Shown here: positions 3,706-17,662 of the stretch, piece after piece
How the letters are laid out: each line of letters opens with the position of its first letter
Position numbering within the stretch: the first letter of the stretch is position 1
From: Methanosphaera sp. BMS
GTDB taxonomy: Archaea; Methanobacteriota; Methanobacteria; Methanobacteriales; Methanobacteriaceae
DNA length: 64,000 nt
Direction: 5' to 3'
Assembly (NCBI RefSeq): GCF_003268005.1
Contig: NZ_CP014213.1
Span: 2,563,501-2,627,500 of the forward strand
Program-made: the position numbers and the translations under genes
The notes under the pieces: model-generated
What the model was told of the DNA's origin: nothing
The model's input: only the letters and a program-made list of their open reading frames with translations
The model's database searches: none

Positions 3706-4140
3706 ATGGGAATAGGAAATACCCTGCGGGGAGACGACGCAACAGGACCAAAGATAATAGACATAATCTATGAAAAATTAGTAAACTCCGATGTTGATTC
3801 AGACAATATCTATCTGTTAAATGCGGCAACAGCACCGGAAAATCATACAATAGAAATAAGAGAAATAAATCCCTCACACCTAATCATAATAGATGCGGTG
3901 GAATTTTCTGATAAGCCGGGATCATTTATCATAGTTGATAAAAAACAGATAGATACATTCAACTTCTCAACACATACCATGCCAATATCCTTCCTGATAA
4001 ACTACCTTGAAGACAGTGTGGGATGTAAGATTTTAACACTGGGAATACAGCCGAAGGATATGACACTCGTGGATACAATATCGGATGAAGTAAACAGCAG
4101 TATTGAAGAATTGGCAGAAACAATAATCAAAAATATATGA
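3706..4140 (+). CDS. hycI: HycI-type hydrogenase maturation protease
   Basis: The 144 residues start directly with the family motif GIGNTLRGDD. They contain the IDAVEF and STHTMP segments that supply the Asp and His nickel-sensing ligands of HybD/HycI endopeptidases. The expected job is cleaving the C-terminal tail of a [NiFe]-hydrogenase large subunit after nickel insertion. The N-terminal beta strand expected before GIGN (here KLLIM) is encoded upstream of the only ATG, in an open frame reaching back to a TAA at 3637 that holds no ATG, GTG or TTG. The true start is therefore uncertain. It overlaps the next gene region by ATGA. Confidence 0.82.
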   Translation: MGIGNTLRGDDATGPKIIDIIYEKLVNSDVDSDNIYLLNAATAPENHTIEIREINPSHLIIIDAVEFSDKPGSFIIVDKKQIDTFNFSTHTMPISFLINYLEDSVGCKILTLGIQPKDMTLVDTISDEVNSSIEELAETIIKNI

Positions 4141-4151
4141 GGTGCATTCAA

Positions 4152-5306
4152 TTGAAAATATTATTTATAGGATCACGATTATTTGATGACATATCTTGGT
4201 ATACAAAAGAAAAAGGAATAACAAGTATCATCACTGAATCAAATGAACACGCTCCCAACATTGACTTGGCAGACAAACATTACATAGTAGAACGGGGAAT
4301 GGATAAACCCGGGGAAATTGCTTTAAAAGAAGATGTAGATGCTGTAATCCCACTTATAGGGATAGATAAGCCATTGGTTGATGTAGGTTTGTTAAAGGAT
4401 AAGTTGGAATCAGAAAATGGAATACCGGTTGTTGCCGCAGGTTACGATTGTGCCAAGCTGGCAGCGGACAAATATCAAACAAAAGAATTGCTCCTGGAAA
4501 ACGATATTAAAACACCCCTCTTTAGAAAAGTAGATGAAAAATACAATACTGATGAAATCAAAAAAGAACTACCTATAGTACTTAAAACACCCGAAGGACA
4601 AGGTGGATCAGGAGTAAAAATAGCACTAAATGATGATGATGTGGAAGAGTTCATCAAAGACAAGGATAATGTTTTTACCGAAGAATATGTTGAAGGATTT
4701 GAAGCATCAATTGAAGTTCTAAGATGGAATAACCAGGAAATTTCACTGGCACCAATCTACAAGGGAATAACTACAACCGAAGGAACACATCCTCTTGCCA
4801 AGATAAAACAGGGTCCCTTGGATATTGGGGGATTGGATAACAACTCACATAACAAAGCCTTAAGAAGCCTTGCCGAAAAACTGGCCCAACTTGTAAATGT
4901 AGAGGGTACAATGGACATAGACATACTTCATGATACGACAAAAAGTGAAGATTATATAATAGAACTAAATACAAGACCGAGCGGGACCCGATACATGACT
5001 GCCGCTACAACCGATGTATATCCACTATGTCAACTGGTAGACATGGCCTGTGGTAAATGGACAGCCAAAAACGTTGAAGGAAAGATGAATAACTATTACA
5101 GTGCCGAACTGCCTGTAGGAGATTTTCCACAGGATAAGAAAATACCGGAAAACAAGGTATTCGATGGAGACGTATCATACGTGGTACATGGGCCGGAACA
5201 CTATCAAAGACTAACGCTCAGGGCACCTACAAGGGACTTGCTAAATAAATTAATCTATGAATTAGTACCAGGATATGCAAAGGAAAATGATATTCAATTT
5301 CAATGA
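4152..5306 (+). CDS. ATP-grasp superfamily protein, carbamoyl-phosphate-synthase-like
   Basis: About 384 residues. An N-terminal preATP-grasp Rossmann-like domain begins LKILFIGSR. It is followed by an ATP-grasp core with the glycine-rich loop PEGQGGSGVK and the Mg-binding ExN motif in IIELNTRPSG. The family ligates a carboxylate to an amine or thiol through an acyl phosphate; the substrate cannot be told. I chose the TTG at 4152, which sits 7 nt after GAGGTG; the ATG at 4137 overlaps the upstream stop and lacks its own ribosome site. A group II intron starts 32 nt after its stop codon. Confidence 0.72.
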   Translation: MKILFIGSRLFDDISWYTKEKGITSIITESNEHAPNIDLADKHYIVERGMDKPGEIALKEDVDAVIPLIGIDKPLVDVGLLKDKLESENGIPVVAAGYDCAKLAADKYQTKELLLENDIKTPLFRKVDEKYNTDEIKKELPIVLKTPEGQGGSGVKIALNDDDVEEFIKDKDNVFTEEYVEGFEASIEVLRWNNQEISLAPIYKGITTTEGTHPLAKIKQGPLDIGGLDNNSHNKALRSLAEKLAQLVNVEGTMDIDILHDTTKSEDYIIELNTRPSGTRYMTAATTDVYPLCQLVDMACGKWTAKNVEGKMNNYYSAELPVGDFPQDKKIPENKVFDGDVSYVVHGPEHYQRLTLRAPTRDLLNKLIYELVPGYAKENDIQFQ

Positions 5307-5337: not shown

Positions 5338-6163
5338 GTGTGACAGGCACTTGTCTTTAATTTGTTCTCACCTTAAACTATGCTTTAGGCGTGTTAGTAT
5401 TATATTCGTTTAGGGTGTATTTAACATGGTTATATGGGTTATTCTCCCTTGAACTGCACTACTGGTAACAATGGGTGGATTACATTATAGGTAAAGCCTA
5501 ATATTACTTCTAGCATCTATGAAGTAGTGGGTGAGAGAAAGACTAAGATCTCTAATAATAAATGAACTGATATAAGCATCGTAATAATGAGCCAGTAATG
5601 TGGGATGATTAAAGGATGTACTGTGATTGCAGATAGGCAGACGAAGTGAAAAAGGACATCTATAGATTACAACCCATATATCCGTCGGTGTAATGGGAGA
5701 GCCGAAGCTATATCGTATCTAATAAAAGATAAACCTGGGAAGCCTGGCAAAGTCCAGTAATATGTTACTGGTAGGTTTTTGTGAGGAGTATCTAAGACCT
5801 TGTTAGGTAAAGGATGTTAAGAAAGCTAATGCCACATTGTCATTAAGACAGAGGATTTTAACAAAATTGAACTACTGTGGATATGCTGACTCTAACAGGC
5901 AAATAACATGTTCATAAAACGAAAAGTATTTCAGATATGTAATTGGAATATGATGAAAGACATAGAAAAACACACAAATATTTTATGCTGTTGTGCATCA
6001 TTATATAAAATGGTATATAATATACGTATTTGATATATAAAATCGGATATAACATGCCAGTATTTTACTTTGGATAACTAATTTACTTGAGCCGTATGTA
6101 TTGAAAGGTACGCGTACTGTTCTGAAGGGAGCAAGAGAGAGCAACCTCTCTAACTTATCTGAC
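5338..6163 (+). mobile_element. ORF-less group II intron
   Basis: The left end is GTGTGAC, matching the GUGYG 5' splice-site consensus. Near the right end, 6089-6122 folds as a 34-nt domain V: GAGC... pairs with ...GUUC, with a GAAA tetraloop, a 2-nt bulge and the AGC triad. A domain VI hairpin with candidate branch A near 6153 follows, then a 3' end in AC. Exon pairing is exact: IBS1 CTTTTT (5332-5337) with EBS1 AAAAAG (5649-5654), and IBS2 TCATTA (5326-5331) with EBS2 TAATGA (5585-5590). One C-U mismatch sits in the lower domain V stem. There is no reverse transcriptase reading frame, so any splicing or movement would need a maturase from elsewhere. It lies in the intergenic region after the ATP-grasp gene. 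Confidence 0.85.
6089..6122 (+). ncRNA. Group II intron domain V (catalytic hairpin)
   Basis: A 34-nt hairpin. The lower stem runs from GAGC to GUUC and includes one G-U pair and one C-U mismatch at its fifth position. A CG bulge at positions 25-26 separates it from an upper stem capped by GAAA. This is the most conserved part of group II introns and the main basis for the call. Confidence 0.88.
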
Positions 6164-6471: not shown

Positions 6472-7845
6472 TTATATGCTCTCCTTCAATCCGATAAACG
6501 ATATAACCGCACCAATAAATACGAATGCGACTGCAAGTATCATTATTGTATTACAACTATTTAGGAGTAAATCATAGTACTCTGGTACTATTGCTACATT
6601 GCCCATTACGATTGCAAATACTGTTGTAAATATTCCGAGACTTACGGTCTGTCCTATCAGTCTTGTGGCTGAAAGGGATGCTGATGCCTTTGATGATTCC
6701 TCTTCAGGTACCGTTGTGGTAATAAGCACGGTATTGGGTGATGAAAATAATCCATAGCCTATACCATGTAATGTCATGGCTATTAACAGTACGTATAACG
6801 GCGTGCTGCGTGATAGGAAGCACATGAGTATAAATGCAACACACAAGATTAATAAACCACAGCCTGTCAGAATCTCCCCTCTAATCTTCTTAATCATCCA
6901 ACCTGATATGACACTCATCACTACCATTATAAGTGGTGTGATAATAAGGTACATTCCGGCTATCTGGGAATCCATACCCATGATGTACTGCATGTGATAG
7001 TTATAGACGTAGGTTGTCATGAATGTTGCAAAGTAGCTGAACAGACATGCAAGGTTGGCTGATGCAAAGCGTAGATTTTTAAACAGTCTCATCTCAAATA
7101 TCGGATTTTTGCTTTTCAGTTCCCAATATCCAAAGCATATCAGCAGAATTATTCCAACAAGTGTAATGACTTGACCTGTCAACTCCAATATTCCAGTAAA
7201 TCCATAGATAAACAATATTATTCCCATTGAGTATAGAATGGTACCTGTCATGTCAAAGTTATATTCATCCTCATGGATCCATTCTCCTTTAATCTTGCTT
7301 ATAAGATAATAGTTAATTATGATAACAGGTAATGTTGCAAAAAACAGGCTTTGCCATCCATAGTTAAATATCAGACTTCCACCGAGTATCGGTGCAAGTG
7401 CAATTCCTATATAGACTGTTGCCACGGCAATACCTATTGCAGGTCCTTTTTTATCATCACTCATGGATTCGACAATTAATGCTATGGATGCAACGTTTAA
7501 TATGGCAGATGCTATTCCAAGAACTACTCTAAATGCAAGTAGCATATATGCATCCTGTGATAATCCCGTTCCAAGTGTTCCTATAAAGAAGATTATAATT
7601 CCAAACTTCAATACCTTTTTTAAACCATATTTTTGACATATCTTACCGCATGGAATGCTCAGTACTGCTATTGACAACAGGTATATCGTGTCAACCCAGT
7701 TTTGCAATACATTATTCATTGCAAATGCCTTGGCAATTGATGGCAATGCTACTGGTGCAGCATTTAATAGGAATGCAACTATAATTGTTGCAAGACTTCC
7801 AGCGGTAATTATATACTTTTCCTCTATTGAATACATTTTTTTCAC
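6472..7845 (-). CDS. MFS transporter, DHA2/EmrB-like drug:H+ antiporter family
   Basis: 457 hydrophobic residues with about 13-14 predicted membrane spans. The major facilitator loop 2-3 motif appears as GKICQKYGLKK. A motif C-like segment, GIALAPILGGSLIFNYGW, marks antiporters. Probable role: proton-driven export of a small toxic compound from the cytosol. It is a single gene with no adjacent regulator on its strand. Such transporters are common in gut bacteria, so acquisition by transfer is possible but not shown by the sequence alone. Confidence 0.83.
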   Translation of the reverse strand: MKKMYSIEEKYIITAGSLATIIVAFLLNAAPVALPSIAKAFAMNNVLQNWVDTIYLLSIAVLSIPCGKICQKYGLKKVLKFGIIIFFIGTLGTGLSQDAYMLLAFRVVLGIASAILNVASIALIVESMSDDKKGPAIGIAVATVYIGIALAPILGGSLIFNYGWQSLFFATLPVIIINYYLISKIKGEWIHEDEYNFDMTGTILYSMGIILFIYGFTGILELTGQVITLVGIILLICFGYWELKSKNPIFEMRLFKNLRFASANLACLFSYFATFMTTYVYNYHMQYIMGMDSQIAGMYLIITPLIMVVMSVISGWMIKKIRGEILTGCGLLILCVAFILMCFLSRSTPLYVLLIAMTLHGIGYGLFSSPNTVLITTTVPEEESSKASASLSATRLIGQTVSLGIFTTVFAIVMGNVAIVPEYYDLLLNSCNTIMILAVAFVFIGAVISFIGLKESI

Positions 7846-8233: not shown

Positions 8234-9604
8234 GTGTCAAAGCAAGATTGGAGAGACCTACTTAAAAAGTGGGAAGATGATGGTGAAATAAGACACGTAC
8301 CTGATGAGGTCAAAAAGGAATATGAAATCAGTACGCTGATGATGGACTTGGAAAAAGAACATAGGTATCCTATAATGCAATTTGATAATGTTGAAGGCAG
8401 TGACATACCAGTTATAACAAACACTCTCGGAACAAGAGATCGTTTTGGTGATGCAATGGGAGTTGATGGAAAACATGTGGCAGAAGAATATGCAAAGCGT
8501 GTTAAAAATAGGATAGAGGAACATACACTAATTGAAAACCCGCCATTCATGGCAAACTCCATGTATGGTGGTGATGTTGATTTATACAAACTGCCTATAA
8601 TAACACATTTTCCAATAGATGCGGGAGCATACCTTACAAGTGGGCATGTAATAGCAAAGGATCCTGAAAGTGGTGCTGAAACGGTAGGATTTCATAGAAT
8701 GCAACTAAAGGGTAAAAATAAACTTGGTATAAGCCTACACTCCAGGCAAAGGTTATGGGAGTACTTCCGCAGAAGCGAAGAAAAGGGTGAAAACCTGGAG
8801 GCGGCTATTGTAATAGGTGTGCATCCAAACATATCCCTGGGTTCCCAGGCAGCCATCCCCTATGATAAGGGTAAGTTTGCTTCAATAGCAGGCCTATTCG
8901 GTGAGTCCTTGGAGATTGCCGACTGTACGGAAATAGATATTCAGGTACCTGCCTATGCAGAGTTTGTAATAGAGGGGGAAATACTTGCAAATGTCAGGGA
9001 AAAGGAAGGACCCTTTGCTGAATTTACCAATTATGCATGTCACAGAAGTACTGAAAACGTCTTTAATGTAAAGGCTATTCACTACAGACAAAATCCAATA
9101 TTCCATGATTTGACGCCAGGTTATAGTAGTGAACATATAACAGTCGTTGCAATCCAACGAGAGGGGGATTTGTTGAATGCATTAAGAAATACCTTGCCTA
9201 ACGTTAAGGCAGTACATTCACCATTATCCGGCTGTGGAATATTTCATTGTTTCATTTCAATGAAGAAGATTGCCGAGGGCCAGGCAGCTCAGGCAATATT
9301 CGCGGCATTTGCCGTTGATCATAACCTTAAGATGGCGGTCGTAGTGGATGAGGATGTTGACGTATTCAATGAACAGGAAGTTCTATGGGCTATGGCTACA
9401 AGACTTCAGGCAGACCGTGACATTTTCATAGTACCACAGAGTATGGGAATGGGTGAAACGCTTGATCCGTCAACTGATGAATTAAGCCGTACAGCCAAAA
9501 TGGGAATAGATGCAACAAAACCGCTTGAAGGCTTTTCACCTAAAATAGAAATGAATCATGATGTAGAAAAAGCAGTTAAAAGATTGCATAAATATACAAA
9601 ATAA
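8234..9604 (+). CDS. UbiD-family (prenylated-FMN) decarboxylase
   Basis: 456 residues, a normal length for UbiD enzymes. The catalytic Glu pair lies in EGPFAE (Glu258 and Glu263), spaced as in fungal Fdc1. A FHRMQ segment supplies the expected Arg (about 155). The family needs prenylated FMN made by UbiX and reversibly (de)carboxylates unsaturated or aromatic acids. The start is GTG after GTGAT. It is the first gene of a four-gene run with HyuA, HyuB and an LpdD-like chaperone, suggesting a dedicated carboxylase/decarboxylase pathway rather than housekeeping. An alternative is the decarboxylase of the archaeal mevalonate route, but that would not explain the neighbours. Confidence 0.85.
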   Translation: MSKQDWRDLLKKWEDDGEIRHVPDEVKKEYEISTLMMDLEKEHRYPIMQFDNVEGSDIPVITNTLGTRDRFGDAMGVDGKHVAEEYAKRVKNRIEEHTLIENPPFMANSMYGGDVDLYKLPIITHFPIDAGAYLTSGHVIAKDPESGAETVGFHRMQLKGKNKLGISLHSRQRLWEYFRRSEEKGENLEAAIVIGVHPNISLGSQAAIPYDKGKFASIAGLFGESLEIADCTEIDIQVPAYAEFVIEGEILANVREKEGPFAEFTNYACHRSTENVFNVKAIHYRQNPIFHDLTPGYSSEHITVVAIQREGDLLNALRNTLPNVKAVHSPLSGCGIFHCFISMKKIAEGQAAQAIFAAFAVDHNLKMAVVVDEDVDVFNEQEVLWAMATRLQADRDIFIVPQSMGMGETLDPSTDELSRTAKMGIDATKPLEGFSPKIEMNHDVEKAVKRLHKYTK

Positions 9605-9629
9605 TCTAAAATCAATAGGGGTAATTATC

Positions 9630-11690
9630 ATGTTAGATATTGCAATAGATACCGGTGGAACATTCACCGATTATACATCCATCGGGTCATTAAATGATGA
9701 TGAAGAAAAGAAAATTTTCATAAAAAATCCTACAAATCACGAAAATCCAACACAGGGAATAATTGAAGGATTAAAACAACTTGCAGACAGTTGGGGATGT
9801 GATTTAGGGACGTTGCTTGAAAACACCAATAAGATAAGTCATGGAACAACACTGGCATTAAATGCACTTCTTGAGAAGAAAGGTGTTAAAACGGCACTCT
9901 TTACAACGGAAGGATTCAGGGATGCATTGGAGCTAAGACGTTCAAGGCTAGATAATCAATGGGACATAAGGGCAATAACACCTCCCGTACTTGTACCGAG
10001 AAGATTAAGACTTCCAATAACTGAACGTGTGAATTACAGGGGGGATGTTATCACAAAGTTAGATGAGGATAGTGTAAGGGCAGCTTGTAGAATCTGTAGA
10101 AAAAACAACATCAAATCCATAGCGGTATGTTTCTTGTTTTCATTCATGAATCCATCGCATGAACAGAATGTACGGGAAATAATCAATGAGGAACTACCGG
10201 ATGTCTTCGTATCATTGTCAAGCGATATATCACCACAGATACGGGAATATGAAAGGACAAGTACAACGGTTATCAATGCATCAATAACTCCAATAATATC
10301 CACATACTTCGACAGACTTAAAAGTGAACTGGCAAGATATGGATGGACAAAACCGATACATATAATGATGAACAGTGGAGGATTATCAGATGTTGCCACC
10401 ATGAAAAAAATAGCTGCAAAGTCATTACTATCAGGGCCGGCCGGTGGCGGTGTAGGAAATGAAAATCTAAGTAAAATTCTGGATAAAAAACATATGATAC
10501 TGGCGGATATGGGTGGAACAAGTTTCGACTTACATATAATCGATAACAACAAGACGCAATTGGTTCCGGAGTCCAGAATAGGATCATATCCCATCACACT
10601 TCCTATGATGGACATCAAATCCATAGGAGCCGGTGGAGGAAGTATTGTGAGGGTGGATGAATCAAAAAGAGTTCATGTTGGACCGGAATCCGCCTCATCA
10701 GTTCCGGGGCCTGCCTGTTATAACTTAGGAGGGGATGAGCCAACAATCACTGATGCATTACTTGTACTTAATTTAATAAATGAAAATAACTTCCTCGGAG
10801 GAAGATTAACGCTATCCAAAGATAAGGCAATAAAGGCCATAGAAGAAAAGGTTGCAAAACCGCTGGACATATCCGTTATTGATGCTGCGGTACTTATTTA
10901 TATGGTTGCAAGTCAATTGATGGCAGATGCATTAAGACTTGTAACGACCAAAAGGGGTAATGATCCAAGGCAGTATTCACTGGTAACCAGTGGAGGGGCA
11001 TTCGGATTATTTGCATGCAATATAATGGACACATTAAATATGGATGAGGTTATCATTCCAGTGCAGGCACCGGTATTCTGTAGTTGGGGAATGCTGGGAG
11101 CTAAGCGTAGATATGATGGCACTCAAAGTTTTTTTATGGAAAAAAGTGCATGGGATCATGCACGATTAAACAAACAGGTAGATAAAATGCTTAAAGAGGC
11201 CAATATTGAATTGGATAAGTTGAACGTTTCAGAGGATAACAGAAAACATGAACTGATACTGGAGATGCGATATATCGGCCAGCATCATGAAATTAGCATA
11301 ATGTTAAATAAGCTTCAATTTGAAGCAGAATCAGTCAATGAAATAGACAAACTATTCCATGATACGCATAATGACATTTACCAATATTCTCAGAAGGAAA
11401 ATGACTGGGAAATAATGAACTTAAGGCTTGAAAGTTATGAAGAGAATGTGGATAATGAATTGTTTGAATTTGATGCTAACAAAAGGGATAGCTACAAAAT
11501 CAATCTATCAAGTAAGATTGTCAACACTAAAGAGGATTCACAGGTAACTGTATATCATGAATGTGATTTAAGTGAGGAAATTGCCGGTCCTGCATTGGTG
11601 GAATTTGATTATACCAGCGTATTGATACCGGAAGGTTTTACTTCAAAAATTATGGATGATGGATTGTTAAGTATTATGAAAAATAAGTAG
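9630..11690 (+). CDS. hyuA: Hydantoinase/oxoprolinase A-type subunit (HyuA)
   Basis: 686 residues. The N-terminal DIAIDTGGTFTDY is the ASKHA-type phosphate-binding motif of HyuA/AcxA. Further acyl-phosphotransfer motifs are NSGG and, near residue 292, MGGTSFDL. The glycine-rich GAGGGSI follows. The family uses ATP to activate amides, ketones (acetone, acetophenone carboxylases) or 5-oxoproline, always with a B subunit, which follows 11 nt downstream. It starts 25 nt after ubiD. The substrate cannot be read from sequence. Confidence 0.88.
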   Translation: MLDIAIDTGGTFTDYTSIGSLNDDEEKKIFIKNPTNHENPTQGIIEGLKQLADSWGCDLGTLLENTNKISHGTTLALNALLEKKGVKTALFTTEGFRDALELRRSRLDNQWDIRAITPPVLVPRRLRLPITERVNYRGDVITKLDEDSVRAACRICRKNNIKSIAVCFLFSFMNPSHEQNVREIINEELPDVFVSLSSDISPQIREYERTSTTVINASITPIISTYFDRLKSELARYGWTKPIHIMMNSGGLSDVATMKKIAAKSLLSGPAGGGVGNENLSKILDKKHMILADMGGTSFDLHIIDNNKTQLVPESRIGSYPITLPMMDIKSIGAGGGSIVRVDESKRVHVGPESASSVPGPACYNLGGDEPTITDALLVLNLINENNFLGGRLTLSKDKAIKAIEEKVAKPLDISVIDAAVLIYMVASQLMADALRLVTTKRGNDPRQYSLVTSGGAFGLFACNIMDTLNMDEVIIPVQAPVFCSWGMLGAKRRYDGTQSFFMEKSAWDHARLNKQVDKMLKEANIELDKLNVSEDNRKHELILEMRYIGQHHEISIMLNKLQFEAESVNEIDKLFHDTHNDIYQYSQKENDWEIMNLRLESYEENVDNELFEFDANKRDSYKINLSSKIVNTKEDSQVTVYHECDLSEEIAGPALVEFDYTSVLIPEGFTSKIMDDGLLSIMKNK

Positions 11691-11701
11691 GAAGGTGTTT
11701 T

Positions 11702-13429
11702 ATGATGACAACGGATGACATAATTAACCGTACAGTAATTGCCAATAGGTTGGATAATATTACCGAGGAAATGGGAATATCCCTTGAACATTCTGCTCAT
11801 TCGCCAATATTTGCAGAAGCATGTGACTTTGCATGTTGTATATGTGATTCTAATGGGGATTTAGTATCACAATTGGAGGGAATACCAATACTGGCTACAG
11901 CAGGTTCATTCAGCGTAAAAAAAGTAATAGAAAAATATGGGGATGATATCCATGATGGTGATGGATTTATCTTAAATGATCCCTATTGTGGTGGAAATCA
12001 CCTGCCTGATATAGGAATTATCACCCCAATATTTTATGATGATGAACTGATGTTTTTCTGTGTAAGCAGAGCTCATCATGGTGATATTGGTGGTTCAACT
12101 GCCGGTAGTTATAATCCTAAGGCAACCGAGATATTCCAGGAAGGAATAAGGATACATCCAACAAGAATAATACAAAACAATCAAATTATAGAGGATATAA
12201 TGAGCTTAATTATCCTTAATACTCGTAATCCATCAATGATTAGAAGTGATCTTCTTGCACAGATGGGTTCCAATAAAATAGCAAAGAAAAGGTTAACTTC
12301 CATGATTGATGAGTATGGAACGGACGTCGTTAAAAAAGCAGTTGGGGATAACTTATATCTGGCACAGGAATTGACCAAAAAAAGAATACTTGAAGTACCC
12401 GACGGGGAGTATACTGCAGTAAATTACATTGATGATGATGGATTCCAGGAGGAACCCATTAAAATACAGGTAACAGTTAAAGTTAAGGGGGATAATTTGA
12501 CAATTGATTTTACCGGAACTAATAAGCAGGTAAAGGGTTTTGTAAATACATCCGTAGTCACGGCTACTGCAGCATCGGGTATTGCATCATTATGGTTTTT
12601 AGGTTCTGATATTGCACGTAATGGTGGGGCTTTTAATGTTATTGATGTGGTTCTTCCAAAGGGGTCACTTGTCAATCCACATGAAGGGGCTCCCATGACG
12701 TTATCAACACTTATTCCCGCCAGTGAAATAATCGGTACCATATTCATGGCATTTAACAAGGCAATCCCTGATAGATTGCCTGCAGGTTATGGTACATATC
12801 TTGGACCGTCATTCTATGGAACAGATCCGCGTAATGGACGATATTACATCGGTTTTACATTCTGTTCACTGGCTTCAGGTGGTGCAATGAAAGGAATTGA
12901 CGGTAAGCCATACATGTCACCGATGTCCAATTATGGTGGAGTAAAAACTCCGAACATCGAGTCAAATGAGGTACAGTATCCTCATATAACGTTGGTTCAT
13001 GAAATGGAATGTGACACTGCAGGTGCCGGTGAATATCGTGGAGGGGCAGGTATAAAGTATGCCTTCCAGAATTATGATGACGGCTGTGAAATAGTAATGT
13101 ACGGTGACGGGGTTAAAATTGCACCATATGGATTGAATGGTGGAAGTACCGGTTCGCTTCAAGTGCCTCTTGTAAGACAGGACGGCGAGTGGATTCAAAC
13201 CGAGTCCAAGGAGTATCCTAGAAAAATCTCTGACGGAGACATAGTATACATACATTCCGCCGGCGGTGGAGGTTATGGAAATCCATATAAACGTGATGTT
13301 AAAAGGGTACATGAAGATTACATTGATGGAATAATATCACGTGAATCTGCTTTAAATGATTATGGTGTTAAAATCAATGAAGATGGCAAAGTGGATATGG
13401 ATGCCACTAGCAAAATAAGGGGAGTTTAA
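11702..13429 (+). CDS. hyuB: Hydantoinase/oxoprolinase B-type subunit (HyuB)
   Basis: 575 residues matching the hydantoinase B fold throughout. Features include EHSAHSPIFAEACDFACC near the N-terminus, DPYCGGNHLPDIG with its metal-binding-like His/Asp, and the C-terminal SAGGGGYGNP. It forms the partner of HyuA in ATP-dependent hydrolases and carboxylases. Its stop is 1 nt before the next ATG, so translation of the four genes is likely coupled. Confidence 0.88.
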   Translation: MMTTDDIINRTVIANRLDNITEEMGISLEHSAHSPIFAEACDFACCICDSNGDLVSQLEGIPILATAGSFSVKKVIEKYGDDIHDGDGFILNDPYCGGNHLPDIGIITPIFYDDELMFFCVSRAHHGDIGGSTAGSYNPKATEIFQEGIRIHPTRIIQNNQIIEDIMSLIILNTRNPSMIRSDLLAQMGSNKIAKKRLTSMIDEYGTDVVKKAVGDNLYLAQELTKKRILEVPDGEYTAVNYIDDDGFQEEPIKIQVTVKVKGDNLTIDFTGTNKQVKGFVNTSVVTATAASGIASLWFLGSDIARNGGAFNVIDVVLPKGSLVNPHEGAPMTLSTLIPASEIIGTIFMAFNKAIPDRLPAGYGTYLGPSFYGTDPRNGRYYIGFTFCSLASGGAMKGIDGKPYMSPMSNYGGVKTPNIESNEVQYPHITLVHEMECDTAGAGEYRGGAGIKYAFQNYDDGCEIVMYGDGVKIAPYGLNGGSTGSLQVPLVRQDGEWIQTESKEYPRKISDGDIVYIHSAGGGGYGNPYKRDVKRVHEDYIDGIISRESALNDYGVKINEDGKVDMDATSKIRGV

Positions 13430-13430
13430 A

Positions 13431-13760
13431 ATGGATGAGTATGAAATTTCCACTCCCAGAACATCCATACACCTAAAAATAACAAAGGTGGGGGATGATA
13501 TGGATGTCATTATAGCCGGTGGAAAAGAACATATAGGATGCGTTGGAGTAATATCCAACAACTCCTATACTATAAATACAATCAAAAATCACCGCGAGGA
13601 TGATATTGTTCTACCAATAGCAAAGAAATTATCTGCTCTGACAGACAGGACAATCGTTATAAAAGCAGGCATACACGTTGATAATATAACAAAAGCAGAA
13701 ATCAAATCAATACTTGGAAGTATTGAAAAAATGCTGGACATTATAATGGATTACTTATAA
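13431..13760 (+). CDS. LpdD-like prenylated-flavin chaperone / gallate decarboxylase D-type protein
   Basis: 109 residues. The order of segments is VIIAGGKEHIGCVGV, then HREDD, then IVIKAGIHVDNIT. This fits the small LpdD proteins encoded beside UbiD-type decarboxylases such as gallate decarboxylase, which are thought to help prenyl-FMN loading or enzyme maturation. It overlaps the hyuB stop closely and closes the operon. Its presence supports that the UbiD enzyme here uses prenylated FMN. The assignment rests on remembered family features. Confidence 0.7.
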   Translation: MDEYEISTPRTSIHLKITKVGDDMDVIIAGGKEHIGCVGVISNNSYTINTIKNHREDDIVLPIAKKLSALTDRTIVIKAGIHVDNITKAEIKSILGSIEKMLDIIMDYL

Positions 13761-13972: not shown

Positions 13973-14758
13973 ATGGCCGATAAAGTAATTTTAGTCGTAA
14001 GTTTTGGAACTTCATATAATAATAACCGTGACCTCACAATTGGTGCAATTGAAAATGATATAAAAGATCACTTCCAGGATTATGAAATCAGACGAGCATT
14101 TACAAGTCAAATGATAATAAACAAATTGAAAAAACGAGACAACCTAGAAATCGATAACGTTAAGGAAGCTTTGGAAAGAGCAGTAAATGATGGAGTTAAA
14201 ACACTCATTGTTCAGCCAACACATATGATGGACGGAACAGAATACCATTATAAAATTAAAGATCATTTGGATAATTACCAAGATAAATTCGATACGCTAG
14301 TACTGGGTGAACCACTAGTTAAATATGATGTGGATTATGATGACCTAATCGATTGCATTACGGCTACAGAGTATGATGATGACACTGCCGTTTGTTTCAT
14401 GGGCCATGGAACTCCAGCCGATTCAAACGTAATATACACAACGTTACAAAGTAAGTTAACCTCTAGAAATTATAAAAATTATTACATTGGAACAGTTGAA
14501 GCGGAACCTACCTTTGATGATGTTTTGGCAATGATTAACAAAGGAGAATACAAAAAAATTATTTTAAAACCTTTAATGGTAGTAGCAGGAGATCATGCTC
14601 AAAACGATATGGCCGGTGATGAAGAAGATTCATGGAAATCCATGTTTGAATCAAACGGATATGAAGTTGAATGCGTAATAGAGGGATTGGCCCAGTCAAA
14701 AGACATTAGAATGATGTATATTAAACATTTAGAACAATTAATCGAAAGCTTAAACTAA
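13973..14758 (+). CDS. cbiK: CbiK-type sirohydrochlorin cobaltochelatase
   Basis: 261 residues. His145 in FMGHGTP and His208 in GDHAQNDMAGD correspond to the metal-inserting His145/His207 of Salmonella CbiK. N-terminal VVSFGTSY is typical too. It inserts Co2+ (or another divalent metal) into sirohydrochlorin in early anaerobic cobamide synthesis, and possibly Ni2+ in F430 synthesis. Most methanogens use the short CbiX/CfbA enzyme; the long CbiK form is mostly bacterial, so transfer is possible. Monocistronic, ATG start. Confidence 0.88.
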   Translation: MADKVILVVSFGTSYNNNRDLTIGAIENDIKDHFQDYEIRRAFTSQMIINKLKKRDNLEIDNVKEALERAVNDGVKTLIVQPTHMMDGTEYHYKIKDHLDNYQDKFDTLVLGEPLVKYDVDYDDLIDCITATEYDDDTAVCFMGHGTPADSNVIYTTLQSKLTSRNYKNYYIGTVEAEPTFDDVLAMINKGEYKKIILKPLMVVAGDHAQNDMAGDEEDSWKSMFESNGYEVECVIEGLAQSKDIRMMYIKHLEQLIESLN

Positions 14759-15098: not shown

Positions 15099-16181
15099 AT
15101 GTTAGGTCAAGTGGATGTAATAATATTTATTATCACACTCATAGTCACGGCATTATTCACGGCATTCGTACGCCGTGAATTGATAGCAGCGGACATTCGT
15201 GATAATCCAATAGTATCAGAACATAGACAGAAAAGTGGAACACCAACAATGGGAGGATTTGGAATTCTCTTGGGTGTTATCCTAATGGCACTTTTCTTAT
15301 TCAACCAGCCATCAAATAGTTATCTTATAATAACAGTACTTATAATGGTGGCTGCAGGATTCTTTGGAATGTTTGATGACCTTTTAGGTTTTAAAGTCAA
15401 AGAATATCAGAAGGTGGTCTTAAACGATGGTGACACGCCAGTCAAAATTGGTCTATTGACACTTGCTCCGGGTGAAGAGGCAAGAATAGCTTCTCCAAAA
15501 GCTAAAGAGGATTATGCTCAAATAGTAGAAAAAGAACATAAACTAAAAGTAGTTGATGAAATACCGATAAAAAGTGAAACAACGGAAACAGAAAAAATAA
15601 TCATTCAGTTTGTTGTCGCATGTTTCATAGTTATTCCGGGAGTACTGCAAAGTAACATCATGGGAATAGAGATAGGTATCTTGATGATTCCACTGGCAAT
15701 ACTTGCTGTAATTGGTTCTATTAATGCAGTAAACCTCATTGACGGTATGGATGGACTTGCTGCAGGTATCATAGCAATAGCATCCCTTGCTTCAGCATTC
15801 TTTGCAAGCATGACTACGGGAGCAGTTGCTTCATTACCATTTGTAGTACTATCCGGTGCATGTGTAGGATTTTTGGTTCTAAACCATTACCCTGCAAAGA
15901 TATTCATGGGAGATACCGGTTCATTTGCATTAGGGACTGGATATATGGTAGCCGCATTACTTGGAAATACATTAATATTCTCAATAATAGCACTGGCAGT
16001 ACCGATAATATCGGTTATAATCAGTCTAATGCACAGGGCACATATTATAACACTGCCTGTTGAACCGTTGCATCATACATTAAACTATCATGGAATGAGT
16101 GAACAGAAAATCATATTATTATATTGGGCTATAACACTTGTAGTATCAATTGTTGCTTTATTCATATTTGGAGTATTCTAA
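15099..16181 (+). CDS. MraY-like glycosyltransferase 4 family phospho-sugar transferase (pseudomurein lipid I step)
   Basis: 360 residues, integral membrane, about 9-10 spans. MraY landmarks are present: Asp-Asp at residues 93-94 (FDDLLG), NAVNLIDGMDGLAAG and FMGDTGSFALG. It is expected to attach a UDP-linked peptide-sugar to undecaprenyl phosphate on the inner membrane face. A charged stretch of about 65 residues (99-166) between two spans is longer than in bacterial MraY and looks lineage-specific. Three Mur ligases follow on the same strand, supporting a role in pseudomurein rather than protein glycosylation. Confidence 0.83.
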   Translation: MLGQVDVIIFIITLIVTALFTAFVRRELIAADIRDNPIVSEHRQKSGTPTMGGFGILLGVILMALFLFNQPSNSYLIITVLIMVAAGFFGMFDDLLGFKVKEYQKVVLNDGDTPVKIGLLTLAPGEEARIASPKAKEDYAQIVEKEHKLKVVDEIPIKSETTETEKIIIQFVVACFIVIPGVLQSNIMGIEIGILMIPLAILAVIGSINAVNLIDGMDGLAAGIIAIASLASAFFASMTTGAVASLPFVVLSGACVGFLVLNHYPAKIFMGDTGSFALGTGYMVAALLGNTLIFSIIALAVPIISVIISLMHRAHIITLPVEPLHHTLNYHGMSEQKIILLYWAITLVVSIVALFIFGVF

Positions 16182-16195
16182 TTTAGGTGAGAAAT

Positions 16196-17662
16196 TTGAA
16201 AAATAGTATTAAAGCTTCAGAATTAACCAAAATCATTGAAGGTAAATTATACGGTGAAGATACCGATTTGAATGGATTATTTACATTTTTAAATAAAGCA
16301 TCCCGTAATGACATGGTTATACGTCATTGGATTAATGCTAAGGGAATCCAAATTGCCAATGATAAAAATGTTTCCTGTGTAATAACACAAAATCCACAGG
16401 ATGATGCAATAGAAACGGCAGAAAGATTACACATGGCATTAATAGTCACTCAAAAGATTGAATTGGCAACAGCATATGCCATCAGTATGGCCGTTGAAGA
16501 ATATGCACCCGGTGCATTTAAAATGGCCGTAACAGGTACAAACGGTAAATCAACCACCTCTCACCTACTTTATACTATTTTTAAGGATTTGGGTTTTAAT
16601 ACATACACCAATACTGATGCGGAATCTGAGGGAAACACCCTGATAGATCCACGTGTAGCGGTAGAATTGGCAGAGTTTCATGCTTCCAACGCTTTGATTG
16701 AAGCAATATCTCTTGAAGTATCTGAAGTGCAGGGATGGGATGACAGAATTATGAAAGATCACGCCTATCAAATGATAAGTGCATTAAATACTGACGTGTC
16801 CATCATAACCAATGCATCGGCGGATCATATGAATTTGGTGGAATCATTTGATGACTTATTGAATGAAATCGGCGGAGCAGCACGTGCATTACTTAACAAT
16901 CAAAAGGATTCTTTACTTGTACTCAATTATGATGATGAAAATATCCGTAAAATGGATAAAATAGTGAAGAATCATGATAACATAAAGGTAATGTATTTCG
17001 GTGAATTTTCCACAGACTCTTCTCTGGATATATGTTATAAGGAAAATGATGCCATCTATGCAAATAATCAACTCTACATTAAGTATGAGGACTTGCCGTT
17101 TACTTCAAAGCATTTTATACAGGATATAATGGCTGCAATAGCAGTATGTGTATATAAGAACTTAGACAGGGAAAAAGTGGTTGAATCATTAAGAAACTAC
17201 AAGGCATTATCCCGAAGATTCATTAAACTAAGGGACAACCCAGTTGTTATTGATGACTTTGCACATAATCCGTCAGGCATAAAGTTAACGATTGAAAACG
17301 GTGCAAAGTTAGGCGATAGGCTATTTGTAGTGGATGCTATAAGGGGAAGCCGTGGGGATGACATAAACAAAGAGATAGCTGAGGCACTGGTTGAATCATT
17401 ACAAAACGAGGAAGACTATACATTACTTCTAACATGCAGTCGTGATGTCGTAAATGAATTAAATACTGTAATCGACTCCGAACTGGAAGTATTCACTACT
17501 ATACTGGATGAAAATCACATTGAATACACGTTATTTGATAACCTGGAGGATTCATTATTAAATGTTTTCGATATTGCAGATGAAAATGATGTAATCCTAT
17601 TATTGGGAGCTCAGGGTATGGATCCTGCCAGCAAACTACTTAAGAAGAATAATCTCATATAA
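16196..17662 (+). CDS. Mur ligase family protein (pseudomurein peptide ligase)
   Basis: About 488 residues. The ATP P-loop TGTNGKST lies near residue 115. The central domain has ALNTDVSIITNASADH and the C-terminal domain VIDDFAHNPSG, the MurE/MurF-like three-domain order. It would add an amino acid to a growing UDP- or nucleotide-linked peptide in the cytosol. I chose the TTG at 16196, 5 nt after AGGTGA; a GTG 9 nt upstream is inside the ribosome site. It follows mraY by about 14 nt, so they form an operon. Confidence 0.83.
   Translation: MKNSIKASELTKIIEGKLYGEDTDLNGLFTFLNKASRNDMVIRHWINAKGIQIANDKNVSCVITQNPQDDAIETAERLHMALIVTQKIELATAYAISMAVEEYAPGAFKMAVTGTNGKSTTSHLLYTIFKDLGFNTYTNTDAESEGNTLIDPRVAVELAEFHASNALIEAISLEVSEVQGWDDRIMKDHAYQMISALNTDVSIITNASADHMNLVESFDDLLNEIGGAARALLNNQKDSLLVLNYDDENIRKMDKIVKNHDNIKVMYFGEFSTDSSLDICYKENDAIYANNQLYIKYEDLPFTSKHFIQDIMAAIAVCVYKNLDREKVVESLRNYKALSRRFIKLRDNPVVIDDFAHNPSGIKLTIENGAKLGDRLFVVDAIRGSRGDDINKEIAEALVESLQNEEDYTLLLTCSRDVVNELNTVIDSELEVFTTILDENHIEYTLFDNLEDSLLNVFDIADENDVILLLGAQGMDPASKLLKKNNLI

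Follow-up and report, generated by a model that had tools for sequence, protein, structure and literature searches.

CblT/CblS, an importer of alpha-ribazole and its kinase, is a salvage system of Bacillota in which the S component of an energy-coupling factor (ECF) transporter and a processing enzyme are placed under the control of a cobalamin (vitamin B12) riboswitch. The LpdC–LpdD gallate decarboxylase pair of Lactobacillus plantarum, furthermore, combines a UbiD-family enzyme with a small chaperone, LpdD, which has a metal site (H35/H61/D63), binds reduced prenylated flavin mononucleotide (prFMN; prFMNH2 in the reduced form), and helps to load UbiD (PMC10865409). Also, relatives of the two-subunit protein HyuAB are known to break down lactams and hydantoins (PMC8453981). 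Here, we describe a cluster of four genes encoding UbiD, HyuA, HyuB, and an LpdD-type protein in the archaeon Methanosphaera sp. BMS, which was found in a stretch of 64,000 nucleotides (contig NZ_CP014213.1, positions 2,563,501 to 2,627,500; hereafter called the window). The four genes are a genuine conserved unit that has been gained and lost together, and the counterpart in Acetobacterium-type acetogens is accompanied by an ECF importer and predicted to belong to the B12 regulon. With the LpdC–LpdD pair, the unit has in common a UbiD and a putative prFMNH2-binding chaperone, to which HyuAB is added and, in the bacterial form, also ECF genes and a riboswitch. The closest solved HyuAB proteins, caprolactamase CapAB of Pseudomonas jessenii (6YRA) and N-methylhydantoinase (7HK5), share the ATP motifs and the metal tetrad with our HyuAB, but the latter is always partnered by UbiD and, in bacteria, by the ECF importer as well. 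As in the CblT/CblS-type systems, an S component and processing enzymes are found within a cobalamin-riboswitch regulon, and a CblT/CblS-like pair is indeed present in the same bacterial genomes; in the module, however, the S component is without a family, HyuAB and UbiD/UbiX/LpdD replace the kinase, and the enzyme genes occur also in an archaeon.

The host genome of the window is 2.87 Mb in a single contig and is labelled G000 in our comparison set. The four genes are as follows.

8234–9604, + strand: UbiD, 456 amino acids with a GTG start (PF01977 at 197 bits, PF20695, PF20696)
9630–11690, + strand: HyuA, predicted ATP-binding subunit of a lactam/hydantoin-type hydrolase, 686 amino acids (PF05378/PF01968/PF19278)
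11702–13429, + strand: HyuB, metal-site subunit and partner of HyuA, 575 amino acids (PF02538 at 486 bits)
13431–13760, + strand: LpdD-type protein, 109 amino acids (PF21758 at 86 bits, cut-off 27)

A first-pass annotation of this DNA had reported four same-strand genes that are separated by 25, 11, and 1 nt and show the motifs of their families, all of which were confirmed by the open reading frames, the Pfam matches, and the active-site residues. In UbiD, the catalytic triad (R171/E258/E263) is present and is invariant across 12 orthologues, while the general model TIGR00148 is its sole match in NCBIfam, with no curated functional subfamily above its cut-off. The closest solved UbiD proteins are 6H6V/6H6X, which we take to be the furandicarboxylate decarboxylase HmfF, and AnInD, an indole-3-carboxylate decarboxylase (7P9Q). 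HyuA has the phosphate motifs DTGGTFTD at residue 7 and DMGGT at residue 293, and the metal tetrad of HyuB (D42/H100/D103/H125) aligns with D41/H99/D102/H124 of CapB, our reference for the metal-site residues (PMC8453981). The LpdD-type protein is similar to LpdD chains of known structure (8p4w and others; E 4e-4), and its residues H34/H54/E56 fall on the metal site of L. plantarum LpdD, with both His residues kept and Asp63 replaced by Glu; the protein is probably a chaperone that binds reduced prFMN for UbiD.

UbiD of the window type and HyuB have identical distributions across 20 Methanosphaera genomes, both being present in six (Fisher p = 2.6e-5, uncorrected for relatedness), and HyuB was absent from every other genome of our set that shares the family, order, or class. 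The order UbiD-HyuA-HyuB is retained in five of the six carriers, and in the sixth (G012) the genes are split by a contig break, at the ends of two contigs; LpdD comes next in all of the Methanosphaera carriers except G016. In G015, furthermore, the flanks are the same but UbiD, HyuA, and HyuB are missing, and LpdD alone is left with the first His of its metal site changed to Arg, which is what the remnant of a lost unit would look like. Because UbiD and HyuB co-occur and both relatives and bacteria conserve the gene order, the clustering is more than chance, and the proposal of the first-pass annotation that the genes including LpdD form one module, which lies outside methanogenesis, is supported.

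We then looked for the module in bacteria by scanning 84,980 genomes for two conserved heptapeptides of UbiD, a scan that is not exhaustive given that a divergent copy in the draft genome G068 is without both heptapeptides. Besides Methanosphaera, close orthologues (66–70%) were hit only in Acetobacterium and its near relatives; a search across the order gave 16 carriers in 67 genomes, and no further carriers were found in a class-wide draw of 391 Clostridia genomes. Taken together, the close UbiD orthologues of Acetobacterium and its relatives fall at 60–70%. At the loci of the Acetobacterium type whose contig extends far enough, the operon has the order ECF A-T-S-UbiD-HyuA-HyuB, which is usually followed by UbiX and LpdD. 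UbiX lies within the operon of most bacterial relatives; in Methanosphaera sp. BMS, no UbiX was found in a search covering the 64-kb window. The ECF genes encode an ATPase of about 500 amino acids with two domains (A), a CbiQ-like T component, and a membrane protein of about 185 amino acids (S), and matches above the cut-offs of TIGR04520/TIGR04521 as well as to PF02361 support the A and T assignments. In G068, the operon is rearranged to HyuA-HyuB-S-UbiD-A-T, the intervals between the genes ranging from −53 to 17 nt, and this tight arrangement argues that the S component is an integral part of the system rather than a bystander.

The S component matches no Pfam or NCBIfam family, and its homologues are confined to the module carriers among the 391 Clostridia genomes. 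While a first model of this protein was poor (predicted local distance difference test score, pLDDT, 53) and was set aside, the AlphaFold model used here (pLDDT 62.7) has solved ECF components as all of its top 18 matches with Z of 10.0–15.6; these belong to systems for thiamin, riboflavin, pantothenate, biotin, folate, and metal and are mainly vitamin S components. The best match is ThiT (Z 15.6, 2.9 Å over 158 residues). On the basis of this model, the S component is predicted to have the six-helix fold of ECF S components and to represent a new family.

Cobalamin riboswitches normally switch genes off when corrinoid is plentiful, and a full-length aptamer of this class (RF00174 in Rfam, 92–111 bits) heads all of the 10 distinct bacterial operons of which the intact upstream region was scanned (L062, L064, L066/L109, L067, L069, L079, L081, L105, L107, and L108). 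All ten loci belong to a single bacterial order and do not count as independent, though the two gene orders do. At the nine loci that were measured, 45–300 nt separate the end of the aptamer from the first gene, which encodes HyuA in G068 and the ECF ATPase otherwise, and a near-consensus promoter precedes the aptamer in G068. With 9–12 such aptamers per genome, the probability that a particular gene start is preceded by one is about 0.0006–0.001. The other aptamers precede the genes for CbiM (cobalt uptake), a BtuF-like binding protein, precorrin-6A reductase, a ThiC/BzaB-like protein, a second ECF S component with an AIRS-like partner resembling CblT/CblS, and the anaerobic ribonucleotide reductase NrdD. 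Given the aptamers at the operon heads and the company of this regulon, the bacterial module is predicted to belong to the B12 regulon. G068 has also a second pair of ECF ATPase and T genes behind two divergent cobalamin riboswitches (L197, 5731–8509), and the contig ends before any S component is visible.

In the tree of UbiD, the Methanosphaera proteins are sister to the Acetobacterium group (99/99), the whole clade is supported at 100/100, and G068 lies outside both. This topology is consistent with inter-domain transfer of the enzyme genes between Acetobacterium-type acetogens and Methanosphaera, and a direction from bacteria to archaea would be suggested by the wider occurrence of the module in Eubacteriales. 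The transfer does not look recent because the GC content at third codon positions of the window genes matches that of their neighbours. A tree of HyuB with G056 as the outgroup was uninformative, for the outgroup branch was far too long. Both groups of organisms use methanol via corrinoid methyltransferases, and this shared dependence on corrinoids could explain a shared benefit of the module.

Taken together, we favor, with a probability of roughly one half, that this is a small-molecule processing module tied to cobamide supply, in which B12-regulated import is combined with hydrolysis and decarboxylation and the product feeds corrinoid synthesis. In the bacterial form, the ECF importer would take up a compound the size of a vitamin, probably a carboxylic acid, amide, or lactam with an N-heterocyclic ring, and HyuAB would use ATP to hydrolyze or activate it as an amide, lactam, or imide. 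UbiX would make prFMN, LpdD would hand it over to UbiD, and UbiD, a family whose substrates are (hetero)aromatic or alpha,beta-unsaturated acids, would remove a carboxyl group, the addition of one being less likely; the steps of HyuAB and UbiD might occur in either order. The riboswitch would turn the operon on when B12 is scarce, and the product would then enter cobamide assembly, most likely, as our leading guess, as a lower-ligand base or its precursor. Indeed, a cobamide precursor is the most economical product in view of the B12 regulation. The archaeal copy, with neither ECF genes nor riboswitch, would keep the same role. A more specific version can be offered only tentatively, and we regard it as clearly less probable than the general one: namely, an N-heterocyclic carboxylate or lactam enters through a new family of ECF S components, is opened by HyuAB at the expense of ATP, and is decarboxylated by UbiD to the lower ligand of cobamides or a precursor, under riboswitch control in acetogens and with the enzymes shared with corrinoid-dependent gut methanogens.

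Several observations weigh against a role in cobamide supply. The fold of the S component does not give its substrate. No homologue of the ECF S gene was found in the 20 Methanosphaera genomes and no RF00174 aptamer in the whole 64-kb window by the Rfam scan, and the archaeal link to B12 therefore rests on orthology. Paralogues of CbiK and ThiC occur in Methanosphaera both with and without the module, Acetobacterium appears to have genes for the synthesis and salvage of lower ligands, to which another route may be redundant, and cobalamin riboswitches control B12-independent enzymes such as NrdD as well. We also considered that the module replaces lower-ligand synthesis of the ThiC/BzaF type, but this is unsupported given that most Methanosphaera have two ThiC-family genes regardless of the module.

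A supply of cobamide precursors would be significant, for it would bring prFMN chemistry and ATP-dependent hydrolysis of amides or lactams into cobamide supply, would add a new substrate class to the ECF transporters, and would link the methanol-using methanogens of rumen and gut to acetogens by a cofactor pathway, with a bearing on corrinoid-dependent methane formation. While UbiD, HyuAB, and ECF transporters are each known, a description of them as one B12-regulated system was not found; no paper joining “cobalamin riboswitch” and “UbiD” was hit in our literature search, and the titles and abstracts of the literature on UbiD or HyuAB-type enzymes mention no such module. The riboswitch, furthermore, provides a directly testable handle in culturable strains of Acetobacterium.

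The main rival to a role in cobamide supply, rather unlikely in our estimate, is that the module spares B12: it would make without B12, or salvage, a metabolite that a cobamide-dependent enzyme otherwise provides, and would be induced when B12 is low. The riboswitch before the B12-independent NrdD in these genomes is of the same class, and an importer with two processing enzymes would fit the salvage of an end product. Nonetheless, the core metabolism of both host groups depends on corrinoids, and we know of no cobamide-dependent enzyme whose product needs ATP-dependent hydrolysis of an amide or lactam together with prFMN-dependent decarboxylation.

Somewhat less probable still is catabolism, in which an exogenous aromatic, N-heterocyclic, or lactam compound serves as a source of carbon or nitrogen; the first-pass annotation had leaned this way in proposing the processing of a compound derived from the host or its diet. 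A plasmid search found only distant UbiD proteins (about 35% identity) in other contexts, beside nucleobase-type symporters, amidohydrolases, and UbiX on rhizobial and Paracoccus plasmids, the relatives of HyuAB degrade lactams and hydantoins (PMC8453981), and a gene of the major facilitator superfamily (MFS) adjoins the module in some Methanosphaera. The bacterial operons, however, are headed by the cobalamin riboswitch in both gene orders, a carbon source would not usually be taken up by an ECF importer of the vitamin type, and no downstream catabolic genes were evident at the loci examined; the riboswitch and the importer point instead to cofactor supply.

The first-pass annotation had also likened HyuAB to the ketone-activating acetone and acetophenone carboxylases, with which HyuA and HyuB indeed share the fold, the ATP motifs, and the metal site, and ATP-dependent carboxylation followed by the action of UbiD on the carboxylated product would be the corresponding role. 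This is improbable, given that the NCBIfam scores favor a hydrolase (CapA 546 bits, the best match of HyuA, vs ApcC 334 bits; CapB 345 bits vs ApcD 175 bits for HyuB) and that a third carboxylase subunit was not seen at any archaeal or bacterial module locus examined. All of these scores fall below the respective equivalog cut-offs (1000 bits for CapAB, 1500 bits for the acetone/acetophenone carboxylases), and HyuAB would thus be placed nearer to the two-subunit ATP-dependent lactam hydrolases without being assigned to CapAB itself.

The archaeal modified mevalonate route needs a UbiD, and an AcnX-type gene set belongs to that route. Indeed, the same genome has a second UbiD (L002, G000:C1, about 2166630–2167181) beside a PurE-like gene, and UbiD of this type is present in nearly all Methanobacteriales searched. 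The window UbiD is 34% identical to L002, and in the tree its clade is separate from that of the L002 type with a support of 100/100. In G057, a cluster (L056, 7237–11077) has the order LpdD-like–UbiX–L002-type UbiD–AcnX–AcnX swivel. Because the L002 type is near-universal and lies beside AcnX and its swivel in G057, we assign the mevalonate-route role to this type. The window UbiD, as judged from the sequence comparison, is not the anhydromevalonate-phosphate decarboxylase of that route; both belong to the UbiD family but differ in clade and neighbours, the latter having its own gene elsewhere in the genome. A chance neighbourhood of a mevalonate-pathway decarboxylase and an ordinary 5-oxoprolinase, for which the archaeal need of such a UbiD and the LpdD-like and UbiX genes beside UbiD and AcnX in G057 might speak, can be dismissed, since the L002 type fills the mevalonate role, the window UbiD is in another clade, patchy and always with HyuB, and the tree, the distribution (HyuAB being linked wherever the window-type UbiD was found), and the bacterial operons contradict it. 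The first-pass annotation had named two observations that would undo the module idea, a grouping of UbiD with the mevalonate-route decarboxylase and HyuAB standing apart in most relatives, and neither was made. The G057 cluster suggests, on its own account, that an LpdD-type protein can accompany the UbiD of the mevalonate route as well.

The module is flanked in the window by the following two genes.

6472–7845, − strand: MFS transporter (PF07690), divergent from UbiD
13973–14758: CbiK-type sirohydrochlorin cobaltochelatase, directly downstream of LpdD

Among the carriers, only G000, G006, and G016 have the MFS gene beside the module, which stands without it in G007, G009, and G012; it is possible that this gene is the transporter of the module, limited to the sublineage of the former three. 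We also considered CbiK, which is patchy in Methanosphaera, as a steady partner and rejected this candidate, given that strong CbiK matches do not track the module and that CbiK lies apart from the module in other genomes. The surroundings are genes for pseudomurein synthesis at 4137–5306 and 15099–17662 (a Ddl-like ATP-grasp, an MraY-like, and a Mur-ligase-like open reading frame), two of which exceed curated NCBIfam cut-offs, and a match to a group II intron domain (Rfam RF00029, 45 bits) lies at 6087–6163, with the pseudomurein-type ATP-grasp gene on one side and the MFS gene on the other. In G007 and G015, a DUF2284 (PF10050) gene is divergent from the module (L048, 5226–5822, − strand; L054, 7859–8455, − strand), and G009 and G012 encode similar proteins. 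A larger fusion of an O-methyltransferase-type domain and DUF2284 is divergent from the operon at roughly half of the loci of the Acetobacterium type (L105, 14381–15946; L108, 14491–16053).

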